Positions 40,166 to 49,749 of a stretch of 64,000 bases of DNA are shown piece after piece. The stretch is from Terriglobus roseus DSM 18391. Lineage in GTDB: Bacteria; Acidobacteriota; Terriglobia; Terriglobales; Acidobacteriaceae. The number at the start of each line of letters is the position of its first letter. Position 1 is the first letter of the stretch. The DNA is taken from the NCBI RefSeq assembly GCF_000265425.1, contig NC_018014.1, positions 4,154,001 to 4,218,000 of the forward strand, read 5' to 3'. The position numbers and the translations under genes are program-made. The notes under the pieces are model-generated. The model was not told where the DNA came from and did no database searches. It saw nothing but the letters and a program-made list of their open reading frames with translations.

Positions 40166-41350
40166 TCATAGACGCACCAGCTCCCGCTGTATCTTCCCAG
40201 TCACCACGGCGCTCCCCGGCCTCGTGATCATATCGATCTCGCTGCGAACGCCGAAGCACTCAGGCCCGGGCGGCAGGTAGATGCCCGGCTCAACCGAGAA
40301 GCAGGTGTTGGGCAGGATCAGCCGCTCGTCGTGCGTTTCAAAGTTGTCCAGATGCGCACCGGCGCCGTGCAGCTCCGTGCCAATGTTGTGGCCGGTCCGA
40401 TGCGTGAACCACTCGCCGAAGCCATTGCGCATGATCACCTCGCGCGCTGCCGCGTCGGGCTCCCATCCTGCGACGGCCTGGTTCGCTGCAAAGCGGTCCT
40501 GCACCAGGCGAATGGCCGCATCGCGCGCGTCGGTGACCGCCTTGAAGACGCGGCCCTCAAGCTCCGTCGCATCGCGGTCGATAACGCCGGTCCACGTGAT
40601 GTCGTACCAGACAGCCTCGGGATCGTCCTTCAGCTTGCCCCAGATGTCGATCAGCAGGAATGATCCTCGCTCGATGCGCGACGACTTCCCTGCCAACGGC
40701 TCATAGTGCGAATCTGCAGCGTTGGCGCCGACGCTGACATTGGGCCCGTGCTCGGTGATGAGACCTTCCTTTGCAATCTCCGCCTGCAGCCACTCGACCA
40801 TGTCGAACTCGGTCACGCCGTGGTCGCCGCGCGCACGTGCGCCAATCTCGCGCCATGCATCTTCCAGAATGCGGTCGATCTTCTTCTGCGCGACGTAGTG
40901 CGTCTCAATCTGCCGGTCGGTGAGCACCGCTTCAAACTGGCTGACCAGGTTGGCGGACGACACGATCGTCTTGCCCATGCCCTGAAGCACCTCAATGGTG
41001 CCCGCATCCACCATCGCCACATACATCACGGCGTTGCGTGGCGAGTACTGCATGGCAATCGTCGTCGCGCCCTGCAGCAGCTTCTCGAGCGACTGCTCCA
41101 TCTCCTGCCAGGTGCTGTAGAGCGTGCGCTCGCCAGGCAGCTTATCCAGCTTGCCGGATTCGATGCGGTGGTTCAGCTTGCGCGGCTCTCCCGTTGCAGG
41201 GATGAAGTAGAACCACCGGCGCGTAACGTGCATACCGGGATCCAGGCCGAGGATGCGGTAGGCCAGCGGGTCGCGGACATGATGGTCATAGAACAACCAG
41301 CCATCCAACTTCGCATCCCGTAACGCCTGCTGCACCCTTGCCAGATCCAT
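40166..41350 (-). CDS. M24-family Xaa-Pro-type aminopeptidase
   Basis: A 394-aa metallopeptidase of the pita-bread fold. A creatinase-like N-terminal domain (1-170) is followed by the catalytic domain, with metal ligands in FLLIDIWGKLKDDPEAVWYDITWTG (two Asp), HRTGHNIGTELHG (His), FSVEPGIYLPPG (Glu) and GVRSEIDMI (Glu). The family usually removes N-terminal residues before proline. ATG 41350 (MDLARVQQALRDAKLDGWLFYD) follows AGAGG by 6-7 bases; the frame is open six codons more. No signal peptide, so cytosolic. Confidence 0.9.
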   Translation of the reverse strand: MDLARVQQALRDAKLDGWLFYDHHVRDPLAYRILGLDPGMHVTRRWFYFIPATGEPRKLNHRIESGKLDKLPGERTLYSTWQEMEQSLEKLLQGATTIAMQYSPRNAVMYVAMVDAGTIEVLQGMGKTIVSSANLVSQFEAVLTDRQIETHYVAQKKIDRILEDAWREIGARARGDHGVTEFDMVEWLQAEIAKEGLITEHGPNVSVGANAADSHYEPLAGKSSRIERGSFLLIDIWGKLKDDPEAVWYDITWTGVIDRDATELEGRVFKAVTDARDAAIRLVQDRFAANQAVAGWEPDAAAREVIMRNGFGEWFTHRTGHNIGTELHGAGAHLDNFETHDERLILPNTCFSVEPGIYLPPGPECFGVRSEIDMITRPGSAVVTGKIQRELVRL

Positions 41351-41428
41351 GAAGCACCTCTGCATCAAGGCTACAACTTTCCACGATCCTCATTTGGTGA
41401 CGCGCTACGTCATCCTGAGCGAAGCATG

Positions 41429-43490: not shown

Positions 43491-44756
43491 CTACGCGCGT
43501 ATCGCAGTGCCTCGCTTCGCGATGATCGGTTCCATGCGCGTGTAGAGTTCCTGCAGGATCTTCACGCCTGCCTCCGCAACACCACGATCGGGCTGCTCGT
43601 TCGTGTCATTCCAGCCTTCATCTTCACCGCCAAAGCTGGGCTGCATCACGATGCCATCACGTCGTGCGAGCAGGTTCAGATTCTTGTAGCCGATACCGTA
43701 CTGCGCGCCCTCCTGCGGGATCAGCCAGGCGATCTGCCCCCGCACCGGCACCACGCTCTCGTCCGACCACAGCGCGCGCGAGTCATACCCCGTGCAGCAG
43801 ATCACAACACCCTGCGGCAGAGTAGCGAACTCATTTGGCGTATGGAACTCGCGATACTCCATGCGTCCGCCGGCGATGAAGAACTCCTGCATCAACTGCT
43901 TTGCATAACCCGCGACGTTGAAGCTCAACGAGGTCGAGCGCCGCACATACTTTGTGGGGAACGGTGTCGATCCCGGCGGCAGCAACTGGCTCTTCGGGTG
44001 CAGATCCGCAATGCTGTCGGCGTAGCGCGCAAAGTCATGCTGCGGCTTCTGGTGCTCCGCATCCGTCGGCATATTCGGATCGACGGGAGCATTCGGATTG
44101 CGCGGCGGGTCGTCGGAAAGCTGGTAACGATCGGTCCATTCAATTGGATTGCCGGCCGTCCCCAGGTAGCTGTTGTACATGCCCCACGAGGTGCGGGCCA
44201 TCTTCTCCCAGTCCGCCGCGAAGGTCGCGGGTGCCTTGTCGGTCAGCGCCACCCGCGAGTCCGGCGTCCACGACCCCGTCGCACGGACCGAGCGAATGTA
44301 GGGCGCACGCTCCTTCGCGTAGATGGTCACGTTGTAGCCCATGCGCTGCGCCGTCAGAGCAGCCGTCAGGCCCAGCGCACCCGCGCCAATCACAGCGCAG
44401 TCCTTCACACCCGGCGCGGCCTCCATCGCCTTGCGCACGGCAAAGTCCGCGGATCCCCACGAAAGCGACCATCCGCTGCCGCCGTGACCGTAATTCGTCA
44501 CAACAGGCTTGTCGCCCATCTTGACCACCTCAATCCGCGGTCCCTGAGCGCGGAAGGGTCGCAGGCAGACGGTGATCCGGAAGATGCGATCGAGATCCGC
44601 GCGGATGGGCACAATGTTGCCCGGCATGTCATAGAACGGCACCGTCGGCGCGCCGGCGGCAGCGACCGCGGGCATAGCGACACGCTTTGCACAGCCATTC
44701 AAAAGTCCAAGCCCGGCAAGTGCACCGGATCCCTGCAGAAAAAGACGACGATCCAT
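43491..44756 (-). CDS. Tat-exported FAD oxidoreductase, D-amino-acid-oxidase-like, permuted
   Basis: A 421-aa protein. ATG 44756 has GGGAG eight bases upstream. The N-terminus MDRRLFLQGSGALAGLGLLNGC is a twin-arginine type signal with a possible lipobox cysteine at 22. Residues 64-101 read CLRPFRAQGPRIEV...VVTNYGHGGSGWSLSWG; in canonical D-amino-acid oxidases this block lies at the C-terminus. The FAD Rossmann motif VIGAGALGLTAAL (about 122-134), normally N-terminal, follows it, then the substrate domain with VICCTGYDSRAL and VPVRGQIAWLIPQ. The chain ends with LQELYTRMEPIIAKRG, which aligns with the segment preceding the moved block. This reads as a circular permutation; substrate is unknown. 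Confidence 0.85.
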   Translation of the reverse strand: MDRRLFLQGSGALAGLGLLNGCAKRVAMPAVAAAGAPTVPFYDMPGNIVPIRADLDRIFRITVCLRPFRAQGPRIEVVKMGDKPVVTNYGHGGSGWSLSWGSADFAVRKAMEAAPGVKDCAVIGAGALGLTAALTAQRMGYNVTIYAKERAPYIRSVRATGSWTPDSRVALTDKAPATFAADWEKMARTSWGMYNSYLGTAGNPIEWTDRYQLSDDPPRNPNAPVDPNMPTDAEHQKPQHDFARYADSIADLHPKSQLLPPGSTPFPTKYVRRSTSLSFNVAGYAKQLMQEFFIAGGRMEYREFHTPNEFATLPQGVVICCTGYDSRALWSDESVVPVRGQIAWLIPQEGAQYGIGYKNLNLLARRDGIVMQPSFGGEDEGWNDTNEQPDRGVAEAGVKILQELYTRMEPIIAKRGTAIRA

Positions 44757-46842: not shown

Positions 46843-46976
46843 CGAACACCGCTAAGATGTCTCGCTTATTCGTCTGGCCGACAAATCACCCGAATGGTGC
46901 ATTTTCTCAACGGCCCCATGGTGCAACAATCCTCCCTATCCTTACATCCCTTGTAAGTGTTCTGGAAGGCTCCCAA

Positions 46977-47771
46977 TTGATTGCCAAGTGTTCTGCCTGC
47001 AAGGACGGCATCGCGCAGCCCATGCAGTTCAGCATGGCATTTCAGCCGATCGTGGACGTATCCACGCGGCGCGTCTACGCCTACGAGGCGCTCGTGCGTG
47101 GGCCGCAGGGTCAGGCAGCAGGAACAGTTCTATCGCAGGTCAATGATGACAACCTGTACGCCTTCGATCAGAGCTGTCGCGTGAAGGCCCTGACACTGGC
47201 AAGCCGGCTCGGACTCGCAGACAATGGCGCACTGCTTTCCATCAATTTCCTGCCCGGAGCAGTTTACAGTCCTGCTGCATGTATTCAGCTCACCCTAAAG
47301 ACCGCCCGCGACCTGAATTTTCCACTCGACCGGCTGATCTTCGAAGTCACCGAAGGTGAAAAAGTTAAGGATGCGAACCATCTGGAAGGCATCGCAAGCG
47401 AGTACAACAAGCACGGCTTTAAGATTGCCATCGATGACTTCGGTGCTGGGTTCGCCAACCTGAACCTGCTGGCCGATTTGTCCGCGGACATTGTGAAGGT
47501 CGACATGGCACTGACGCGCAATCTTCACCTGCGAAAGAAGGCTCGCGCCATTGTCCGCTCGCTGGTCCAACTCTGCCAGACGCTTGACATCACGATAGTC
47601 GCCGAAGGCGTGGAGACTGCTGACGAATACTCTGCGCTTCTCGATTGTGGCATCCACAGGATGCAGGGCTATCTCCTCGCGCGCCCGCAGTTTGAAGCAC
47701 TGCCCGTCTTCACCCTGCCCGGCGACCCCGTTGTTGCAGTACCAATCTTCAGCCTCTTCCAGCCAAGCTAA
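46977..47771 (+). CDS. EAL-domain c-di-GMP phosphodiesterase, copy 1
   Basis: A 264-aa stand-alone EAL protein. I start it at TTG 46977 because GGAAGG (46964-46969) sits seven bases upstream and the product then aligns end to end with its neighbour. N-terminal KCSACKDG (C5, C8), then FSMAFQPIVDVSTRRVYAYEALVRG with the EAL glutamate at 37. Metal and catalytic blocks are intact: INFLPGA, RLIFEVTEGE, IAIDDFGAGFANL, DIVKVDMAL, IVAEGVET, MQGYLLARP. It should hydrolyse c-di-GMP. No sensor or membrane domain. Same strand as the paralogue 180 bases downstream. Confidence 0.92.
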   Translation: MIAKCSACKDGIAQPMQFSMAFQPIVDVSTRRVYAYEALVRGPQGQAAGTVLSQVNDDNLYAFDQSCRVKALTLASRLGLADNGALLSINFLPGAVYSPAACIQLTLKTARDLNFPLDRLIFEVTEGEKVKDANHLEGIASEYNKHGFKIAIDDFGAGFANLNLLADLSADIVKVDMALTRNLHLRKKARAIVRSLVQLCQTLDITIVAEGVETADEYSALLDCGIHRMQGYLLARPQFEALPVFTLPGDPVVAVPIFSLFQPS

Positions 47772-47951
47772 CCCCGGTACTTATTGCGAACGTATCCCGG
47801 AACCGGGAAGAAACATCTCGATCCGCTCTGCATCGCATCTCGCAGGCAGGCACATTCTTCGTAGCACATAAGGTGCACCGCCGGACCTCTCAATGTGGTC
47901 TACCTTGAGGTGCGGGCCGCTAACTTCCGCCCCATGTACGGGAAGGTCGCT

Positions 47952-48773
47952 ATGGCAGAAAAATGCGGTGCATGTAAGAACGGTATTCAGAAGCCCATGG
48001 CTTTCAGCATGGCCTTTCAACCAATCGTCGACATCGTAGAGCGCCGCGTCTTCGCTTACGAAGCGCTCGTGCGTGGACCCCATGGAGAACCATCCATCAC
48101 GGTCCTGTCCCAGGTGAATGAACAGAATTTGTACGAGTTCGACCAAAGCTGCAGGATTCAGGCGATCACCCTGGCTGCAAACCTCGGCCTGGTGGAGACA
48201 GGCGCATGCCTCGCGATTAACTTTCTTCCCGGCGCCGTCTACACCCCTGCTGCCTGCATCCGTGTCACACTGAATGCGGCTGACAAGGTCAACTTTCCAA
48301 GCGACCGCCTGATCTTCGAAGTCTCAGAAGCAGAGCATGTCACCAACCCAGCCCATCTGCAGTCCATTGCCGACGAGTACTGCCGGCACGGCTTCCGCAT
48401 GGCTCTTGACGACTTCGGCGCAGGCTTCGCCAACATGAGTTTGTTGGCTGACCTGTCGGTCGACATCGTGAAGATCGACATGGCGCTCATCCGCGATATC
48501 CACCTTCGGCCCAAGGCTCAGATGATCGTTGCCTCGCTCGCTGCGCTGGGCAAATTGATCCGAGCAGATGTTGTCGCAGAAGGCGTTGAAACCGTAGAGG
48601 AGTATGCAATGGTGCGATCCTGCGGGGTGCGCCTGATGCAGGGCTATCTGCTCGCACGGCCGGCTTTCGAAGCGTTGCCAACCTTCACGCTGCCAACCGT
48701 GGAAGCACCGAGCGCCATCAGCATGCTTCCCCGCTCCAGCCGTGGCCTGCACGTCATCCACACCGCCGCCTGA
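47952..48773 (+). CDS. EAL-domain c-di-GMP phosphodiesterase, copy 2
   Basis: A 273-aa paralogue of the preceding gene. ATG 47952 with GGAAGG five bases upstream gives MAEKCGACKNGIQKPMAFSMAFQPIVDIVERRVFAYEALVRG. The CxxC (C5, C8) and EAL are at the same positions. All active-site blocks are kept: INFLPGA, RLIFEVSEAE, MALDDFGAGFANM, DIVKIDMAL, VVAEGVET, MQGYLLARP. The C-terminus differs (TVEAPSAISMLPRSSRGLHVIHTAA). The tandem arrangement shows duplication followed by moderate divergence, which suggests subfunction or dosage. A small palindrome, TCCCGG-AA-CCGGGA (47795-47808), lies upstream. Confidence 0.92.
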   Translation: MAEKCGACKNGIQKPMAFSMAFQPIVDIVERRVFAYEALVRGPHGEPSITVLSQVNEQNLYEFDQSCRIQAITLAANLGLVETGACLAINFLPGAVYTPAACIRVTLNAADKVNFPSDRLIFEVSEAEHVTNPAHLQSIADEYCRHGFRMALDDFGAGFANMSLLADLSVDIVKIDMALIRDIHLRPKAQMIVASLAALGKLIRADVVAEGVETVEEYAMVRSCGVRLMQGYLLARPAFEALPTFTLPTVEAPSAISMLPRSSRGLHVIHTAA

Positions 48774-48837: not shown

Positions 48838-49749
48838 TTACGCGCGCGTGTACTTGTTGAACCAATCGATCGTCCGGCCCCACGCCAGATCCGCCGCAGC
48901 CTTGTTATAGCGCTCCGGTGTTGCATCGCAATTGAAGCCATGTACGGCGTTGGGATAGATGTACCCCTCGTGTGCCACACCAGCAGCCGTCAGCGCCTTG
49001 TCATACGCCGGATACGACGCGGCGGCATTCTTATCCAACTCACCGTGATGGACCAAGACCGCAGCCTTGATCTTGGGAATCTCCGCGTCGGGAGGCACGC
49101 CACCGTAGAACGGAACCGCCGCTGCCAGGTCCGCTCCCATGCGCGCTGCCAGGTTGTTGGACACGCTGCCGCCGTAGCAGAAGCCAGTCACACCAATCTT
49201 GCCCGTGCAGTCCGGCCGCGCCTTCAGCCACTCCGCCGCAGCCTGCATGTCCTCCATCATTTTGGCCTTGTCGATCTTATTGAAGAGCAGACCGCCCTTA
49301 TAGTCATCGCCGGGAAAGCCACCCTGCGAAGTAAGGCCATCGGGCGCAAACGCCATAAAGTTGGAGAGTGCCACGCGCCGCGCAATGTCTTCAATATGCG
49401 GATTCAATCCACGGTTCTCATGCACGACCAGAATGCCTGGCAGCTTCGACGGCTTTTCACTGCGCGAGTCCGCACTCACTGGCCGCACGAAGTAGCCCTT
49501 GATCGTGCCGTTCCCTTTCGGCGAAGGAATCGTCTCGTAGCTTGTCTTAATGCGATCGTCAGTCTTCGAAATCTGCTGACCCAATGCATAGTTCGGCATG
49601 AGTGCTTCTATGACTGCGGTGGCGCCCAGTCCGGCGACCGCAAGTCCCTGCACGCGCGTCATGAAGGCGCGGCGACTCATGCCGCCGTGGATGAACTCGT
49701 TGTACAACTCAACAGCTTCGATCGGCAGTTTCGGACGCTCAGATGACAT
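48838..49749 (-). CDS. Exported dienelactone hydrolase-family protein
   Basis: A 303-aa alpha/beta-hydrolase of the DLH family. An N-terminal extension of about 24 residues precedes a twin-arginine motif (SRRAFMTRV) and a hydrophobic stretch (GLAVAGLGATAVIEALM), so it is probably Tat-exported. Catalytic triad: Cys in VTGFCYGGSVSNN (nucleophile elbow), Asp in HHGELDKNAAASYPAYD and His in NAVHGFNCD. HENRGLNPHIEDIARRVA is the DLH block. Substrate (lactone or ester) unknown. Lies 58 bases behind trhO on the same strand, so co-transcription is possible. Confidence 0.9.
   Translation of the reverse strand: MSSERPKLPIEAVELYNEFIHGGMSRRAFMTRVQGLAVAGLGATAVIEALMPNYALGQQISKTDDRIKTSYETIPSPKGNGTIKGYFVRPVSADSRSEKPSKLPGILVVHENRGLNPHIEDIARRVALSNFMAFAPDGLTSQGGFPGDDYKGGLLFNKIDKAKMMEDMQAAAEWLKARPDCTGKIGVTGFCYGGSVSNNLAARMGADLAAAVPFYGGVPPDAEIPKIKAAVLVHHGELDKNAAASYPAYDKALTAAGVAHEGYIYPNAVHGFNCDATPERYNKAAADLAWGRTIDWFNKYTRA

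Follow-up and report, generated by a model that had tools for sequence, protein, structure and literature searches.

A very probable natural circular permutation in a family of bacterial D-amino acid oxidase-like flavoproteins

We found here that a gene of the soil bacterium Terriglobus roseus DSM 18391 very probably encodes a natural circular permutation within the branch of FAD enzymes that holds D-amino acid oxidase (DAAO) and D-aspartate oxidase (DASPO). The gene lies in the window, by which we mean the whole 64,000-nucleotide stretch of DNA that was analysed (contig NC_018014.1, positions 4,154,001 to 4,218,000). The block that closes a canonical DAAO chain here precedes the Rossmann start, this order of parts is conserved over a large family, and the motifs for FAD and for the substrate carboxylate are kept. 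The old C-terminal block, made of the RP...NYGHGG strands and a helix, would open the domain and run through a linker of some five residues into the Rossmann strand, and the chain would then adopt the usual DAAO fold. DAAO serves both as a model for flavoenzymes and as a catalyst in industry. As far as searched, this conserved permutation of a well-known flavoenzyme is undescribed: no permuted DAAO is described in what we read of the open-licence PMC literature, including passages of PMC7503967, PMC13359353, PMC7801447, PMC4432964, PMC4686048 and PMC6697736, although this coverage is partial and is weak evidence of absence.

The open reading frame runs on the minus strand from an ATG at 44754-44756 to a stop codon at 43491-43493, and its parts are collected in Table 1. 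Along the chain CLRPFRAQGPRIE comes first, starting at C64, followed by NYGHGGSGWSLSWG at 88-101 and then by VIGAGALGLTAAL at 122-134 (with numbering, and in the same order, C64LRPFRAQGPRIE, N88YGHGGSGWSLSWG and V122IGAGALGLTAAL). The moved block contains LRPFR with the carboxylate-binding Arg66, NYGHGG with Gly93, and a helix. The protein terminates in LYTRMEPIIAKRGTAIRA, which is the point where a canonical DAAO would enter the moved block. A first-pass annotation, made from the letters of the window, had put the block motifs of this gene ahead of its Rossmann motif and had reported the same C-terminus; the reading frame and the motif positions agree with it.

Table 1. Parts of the permuted gene and their positions in the window.
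Feature	Position	Strand	Evidence
Whole gene, circularly permuted DAAO-like FAD oxidoreductase (very probable), 421 aa	43491..44756	minus	Pfam, phmmer and profile searches
Residues 1-24, twin-arginine-type signal MDRRLFLQGSGALAGLGLLNGC and lipobox-like LNGC (Cys22)	44685..44756	minus	sequence; pattern counts in relatives
Residues 58-114, former DAAO C-terminal block, now on the N-terminal side	44415..44585	minus	phmmer, HMM, profile, residue counts
Residues 115-119, short linker from old C-terminus to old N-terminus (helix to Rossmann strand 1)	44400..44414	minus	predicted helix at about 99-113 and strand at about 119-123
Residues 118-408, Rossmann start (GAGALG) and remaining DAAO fold	43533..44405	minus	Pfam DAO 1-300 over 119-408
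Asn361, aligned with the Tyr that binds the substrate carboxylate (ReDAAO Tyr244)	43674..43676	minus	profile alignment

In sequence alignments two parts of the protein match known enzymes in swapped order. The Pfam DAO model (PF01266) matches the window protein in two stretches (6e-17), the best of which pairs residues 119-408 with profile positions 1-300 of 353. When the single sequence is searched against the PDB with phmmer, query residues 58-114 correspond to residues 320-376 of 7ct4, the DAAO of Rasamsonia emersonii (ReDAAO), with 2.6e-6 for the stretch, and query residues 118-163 have a weak counterpart in residues 24-69 of that chain. Twelve relatives in their natural, unrotated order were combined into a profile (A4), which at E 0.001 or better matched 39 PDB sequences; 17 of these are DAAO or DASPO, and for 16 of the 17 the match is significant in two separate stretches. 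The four of the 17 with printed alignments all show the swapped order. In human DASPO (6rkf, whole E 1.3e-45) profile positions 109-368 align to chain residues 11-269 (1.7e-31) and positions 54-107 to residues 280-336 (1.1e-10). Two swapped stretches are likewise found in 7ct4 (4.3e-20 and 2.9e-13) and 8hy5 (2.0e-19 and 1.1e-8), and 1c0i shows the swapped order too, its second part broken into weak pieces. As an outside relative, glycine oxidase is matched by the same profile beginning at the start of its chain (residues 17-302 and 19-302 of 382). An HMM built from seven canonical Acidobacteriota DAAO-like proteins runs along the window protein in the profile order 261-313, 4-67, 131-197, and the reverse search, with a canonical query against permuted genes, gives the mirror order (e.g. 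258-308, 6-54, 118-260 in G061). By HMM, reverse search and profile alike, the canonical N-to-C order of DAAO/DASPO is absent from the window protein.

Rotating the sequence in silico clarifies what these searches detect. Placing the front block at the end joins it with the third stretch in a single HMM match (131-313). An identical fused match comes from three of the six control rotations (those at 100, 150 and 200), all of which again leave the block behind the substrate domain, and the rotation test therefore locates the block but not the exact cut. The whole-sequence HMM score is nearly unchanged by rotation (from 110.1 to 111.8 bits for the window protein and from 118.3 to 116.7 bits for the Kozakia protein), and the gain in the best PDB match is small (6.3e-10 to 1.9e-10). 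The benefit of rotation is in how the pieces join and not in the total score: the rotated window protein aligns to pig DAAO 124-323 in one piece, with 5.2e-8 versus 9.1e-6 for the unrotated sequence.

The same order recurs throughout a family. Fifty-six family ORFs were parsed from 59 loci, with the block first in 49 and last in 7, and each of the 56, the window gene included, carries the block exactly once; the second, C-terminal copy that the first-pass annotation had named as telling against a permutation is absent. Among the 49 permuted ORFs, L004 and L097 are the same gene and L081, in which the Rossmann pattern was missed, was assigned by hand. The strict motif missed three of the 59 loci (L078, L079 and L091); a looser one shows L078 and L079 to be permuted, and L091 is a fragmented gene that was not recovered. 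A second permuted gene at L076 likewise escaped the strict motif. The block and the Rossmann motif are 32-36 residues apart in all measured permuted ORFs except four (L068, L069, L086 and L087), which form one well-supported subclade with a longer joint between the old termini and a spacing of 42-68 residues. An artefact of assembly, frameshift or annotation has practically no probability, and we regard it as ruled out by an order identical in 49 parsed open frames, including those of named isolates, a plasmid and one-contig genomes. We consider it very improbable that the front block forms an extra domain of its own, or is exchanged between subunits, and so does not complete the FAD site of its own chain. 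Such an arrangement would have to accommodate the missing second copy, a predicted linker of about five residues, the narrow range of spacings outside the four exceptions, and block motif residues that are kept as in DAAO. The proposal of the first-pass annotation, that this is a circular permutation of the DAAO fold, is thus upheld by the swapped PDB alignments, by the mirror order of the reverse search and by the block-first frames.

Structure prediction is consistent with a permuted chain that takes up the DAAO fold. The AlphaFold2 model of the unrotated mature part (residues 46-421; nine sequences, all permuted) has a mean pLDDT of 69 and a pTM of 0.72, as against a poor model for the full chain with seven sequences (pLDDT 44, pTM 0.45); the improvement followed removal of the signal region and addition of two distant relatives. 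Searched against the PDB with Foldseek, this moderate model finds DAAO/DASPO chains in all of its best 33 matches (best E 1.4e-11), with TM mostly around 0.5 and rmsd of 5-7 Å; four of the 33 titles (4qfc, 4qfd) are incomplete and were counted as human DAAO. The first matches below the 33 are to flavin opine dehydrogenase. In the model the front block forms strand-strand-strand-helix, the first strand at low confidence, and about five residues separate the block helix from the Rossmann strand.

Our wide searches covered Acidobacteriota genomes together with plasmid, phage and viral collections. A match was found in 52 of 297 Acidobacteriota genomes, and by count from the search table these divide into 26 with a permuted gene, 7 with a canonical relative and 19 with only short weak matches; all of the 26 and the 7 were read. 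Three of the 26 hold three to four copies. Plasmid-collection records with permuted genes come from Kozakia, Niveispirillum, Bradyrhizobium, Rhizobium, Mesorhizobium (frameshifted) and Nonomuraea, and overall permuted genes occur in Acidobacteriota, Alphaproteobacteria and one actinomycete. Spread into Rhodanobacteraceae, as the title of L006 (G297) would have it, was set aside: the phylum search for L006 largely repeated the places and scores of the Acidobacteriota search, so the title is probably wrong and the sample is not independent. The Mesorhizobium copy (L142:4735-5798) carries a frameshift inside its Rossmann motif and has been annotated as a pair of genes; what looks like two ORFs is this frameshift and not a natural split. 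The viral collection yielded two further kinds of permuted gene (L143 and L144/L145), its three scans converging on three contigs. In the phage collection the window protein had no match and the rhizobial permuted protein gave one weak match. The contigs that carry the permuted genes L143:1420-2454 and L144:2926-4014 also carry terminase-like ORFs, by eye those of a phage or gene-transfer agent. For the one-contig genome of the window itself (G000), contamination is listed as 9.37%.

We built a maximum-likelihood tree from 51 permuted rows, rotated before alignment, and 11 canonical ones (62 in all). All permuted rows fall on one side of a single 100/100 branch, so a single event suffices, with the proviso from the tree tool that long branches meet where permuted and canonical rows join and that joins of this kind can be spurious. 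L004 was left out of the tree, and the second L076 gene, L078, L079, L091, L142, L143 and L144 are absent from both the tree and the residue counts. The root shown is the midpoint; if a root on the canonical side is assumed, the set of Rhizobium, Bradyrhizobium and Nonomuraea splits first. The canonical bacterial DAAO-like proteins (Acidobacteriota L098-L104 and actinomycete plasmids L135-L138) belong to the family by profile and have the LRP...NYGHGG block, but in them the block is C-terminal and the 100/100 branch divides them from the permuted group. Because glycine oxidase is matched from its chain start, the canonical order is likely to be ancestral. Its occurrence in many bacteria makes the rearranged form look like a single ancient event rather than an error. 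The permutation may have arisen once, by duplication or fusion followed by trimming in an ancestor of canonical order, and would then predate the split of exported and cytosolic branches.

The active site combines conserved and altered features. In ReDAAO the substrate carboxylate is held by Tyr244 and Arg308 and the amino group by Gly335, as set out in section 6 of PMC6697736. In our alignment, which uses an offset of 20 between the 7ct4 chain (388 long) and the protein (368), these residues are N361, R66 and G93 of the window protein. R66 and G93 are each kept in 51/51 permuted and 11/11 canonical sequences, and the GxGxxG for FAD is present (G124, G126 and G129, each in 51/51 permuted sequences), although it lies within the chain, at residues 118-134, instead of at the N-terminus. 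The Tyr ligand of the carboxylate is absent from the window protein; its position is Tyr in 9 of 11 canonical sequences, and in the 51 permuted ones it is Tyr in 17, His in 14, Asn in 11, Ser in 4, Gly in 4 and Glu in 1. We take the pig DAAO equivalent of this position to be Tyr228. The residue before NYG is His in 45 of the 51 permuted sequences and Thr in five, the window protein (T87) among them. With Asn for Tyr and Thr for His, substrate and activity may differ. The permuted fold might accordingly act on something other than free amino acids, such as small peptides, opines or amines, and the rank of flavin opine dehydrogenase directly below the DAAO/DASPO chains in Foldseek also points that way; we nevertheless judge this unlikely, given that the carboxylate Arg is invariant (51/51) and that the neighbouring genes chosen in relatives concern amino acids and peptides. 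FAD-dependent amino acid deamination is instead the likely activity of the window product, the amino acids probably being D-amino acids, and the label 'oxidase' is putative. Overall, the window protein resembles human and pig DAAO, ReDAAO and human DASPO in its predicted FAD fold, by profile and structure model, and in its GxGxxG, carboxylate Arg (ReDAAO Arg308) and Gly (ReDAAO Gly335), but differs from them in its permuted chain, its signal of Tat/lipoprotein type, Asn361 and Thr87. DadA D-amino acid dehydrogenase and glycine oxidase share the Pfam PF01266 DAO family with it, but they are distant in sequence and have the Rossmann part at the chain start.

A natural permutation which retains the carboxylate Arg and the FAD motifs would show where the DAAO fold tolerates being cut and rejoined. 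The canonical relatives in the same phylum make a natural before-and-after pair for study, and the permuted proteins are ready-made permuted scaffolds. Domain models of fixed order detect the permuted form only piecewise, and the relatives with annotations examined here are named plain 'FAD-dependent oxidoreductase'. The suspicion of the first-pass annotation that related proteins might exist without their permutation having been noted fits the annotations seen, which say only this.

The N-terminus of the window protein has, by eye, an RR motif, a hydrophobic stretch and the lipobox-like Cys22, in agreement with the export signal described in the first-pass annotation; the residue at -2 of the lipobox is Asn, which is atypical. 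With the lipobox-like LNGC behind a Tat-type signal, we favour a Tat lipoprotein over a Tat-exported protein that has no lipid anchor. Among 47 relatives, 46 show RR or KR near the start and 35 a loose lipobox, counts which lean that way because the 47 start codons were chosen by a script favouring RR. We suppose that the Tat system would carry the protein folded with its FAD and that it would be anchored as a lipoprotein. There it may deaminate amino acids, probably D-, freed by peptidases outside the cytosol, to imino acids and hence to 2-oxo acids and ammonia. The further idea, that positioning the signal peptide is what the permutation is for, finds no support in the permuted forms of Bradyrhizobium, Rhizobium and Nonomuraea, which share the order, show no signal peptide by eye and are the earliest to split under a canonical-side root. 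As the permuted order occurs in two rhizobia and Nonomuraea without a signal peptide, export need not explain it.

Gene neighbourhoods bear on function, with the caveat that the roughly 35 neighbours given Pfam or NCBIfam assignments were picked by eye, vary and carry no background rate. With 48 loci clustered, the window gene has no conserved partners beyond close relatives. Its surroundings (an M24 peptidase, a protein without a Pfam match, DUF892, DUF2911 and YchF) include no obvious partners; the M24 metallopeptidase ORF (40166-41368, minus strand) lies 2.1 kb from the permuted gene, and a similar ORF is near the gene in six close relatives. Elsewhere the neighbours include an amine oxidase with a Tat-type start, a Rid-family (Ribonuc_L-PSP) protein and an M19 dipeptidase in Granulicella (L003), an aminotransferase with an RR start (L005, L007), S9 and M20 peptidases (L059, with similar ORFs in 6 and 8 of the 48 clustered loci), an amino acid permease (L066), an S15 peptidase (L068), an amidase (L080) and amine oxidases (L056, L094). 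Unrelated neighbours also occur, namely SpoIID (L086), a glycine dehydrogenase-like protein (L069) and an SSF symporter (L064). In the cytosolic permuted branch (L139-L142) the gene for a ThDP enzyme comes directly after the permuted gene in 4/4 loci, and the two of these enzymes that were searched are nearest to indolepyruvate/phenylpyruvate decarboxylase, below the model cut-off. In L140 and L141 an FAD-binding oxidoreductase gene precedes the permuted gene, and multicopper oxidase or azurin genes are nearby.

The Kozakia cluster holds a DadA-like dehydrogenase, S9 and S15 peptidases, a beta-lactamase-type hydrolase, a TonB receptor and a cytochrome c, and in Kozakia baliensis the cytochrome c gene begins five bases downstream of the permuted gene. 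This neighbour makes a dehydrogenase possible, in which case the exported branch would use a cytochrome c of the periplasm or the quinone pool, and not oxygen, as its electron acceptor. Such a role is compatible with the permutation as proposed here, and the DadA-like D-amino acid dehydrogenase gene in the cluster and CxxCH ORFs (motif only) within about 4 kb in L075, L076, L080 and L089, among the matches listed, speak for it. We see it as possible rather than probable, in that the closest solved relatives are oxidases and no CxxCH ORF stands beside the window gene among the matches listed. The fullest version of the proposal, an undescribed natural permutation of the DAAO fold with one origin, present in at least three phyla, tolerated in the cytosol as well as after Tat export, and with an exported branch that dehydrogenates D-amino acids in the periplasm and supplies a cytochrome, is doubtful as a whole. 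Two further features of the window lie beyond the permuted gene. Adjoining similar ORFs of 304 and 292 aa (46857-47771 and 47895-48773, plus strand) look from their motif like tandem EAL-type proteins, and the ORF at 48838-49749 (minus strand) is, by eye, dienelactone-hydrolase-like with a Tat-type start.
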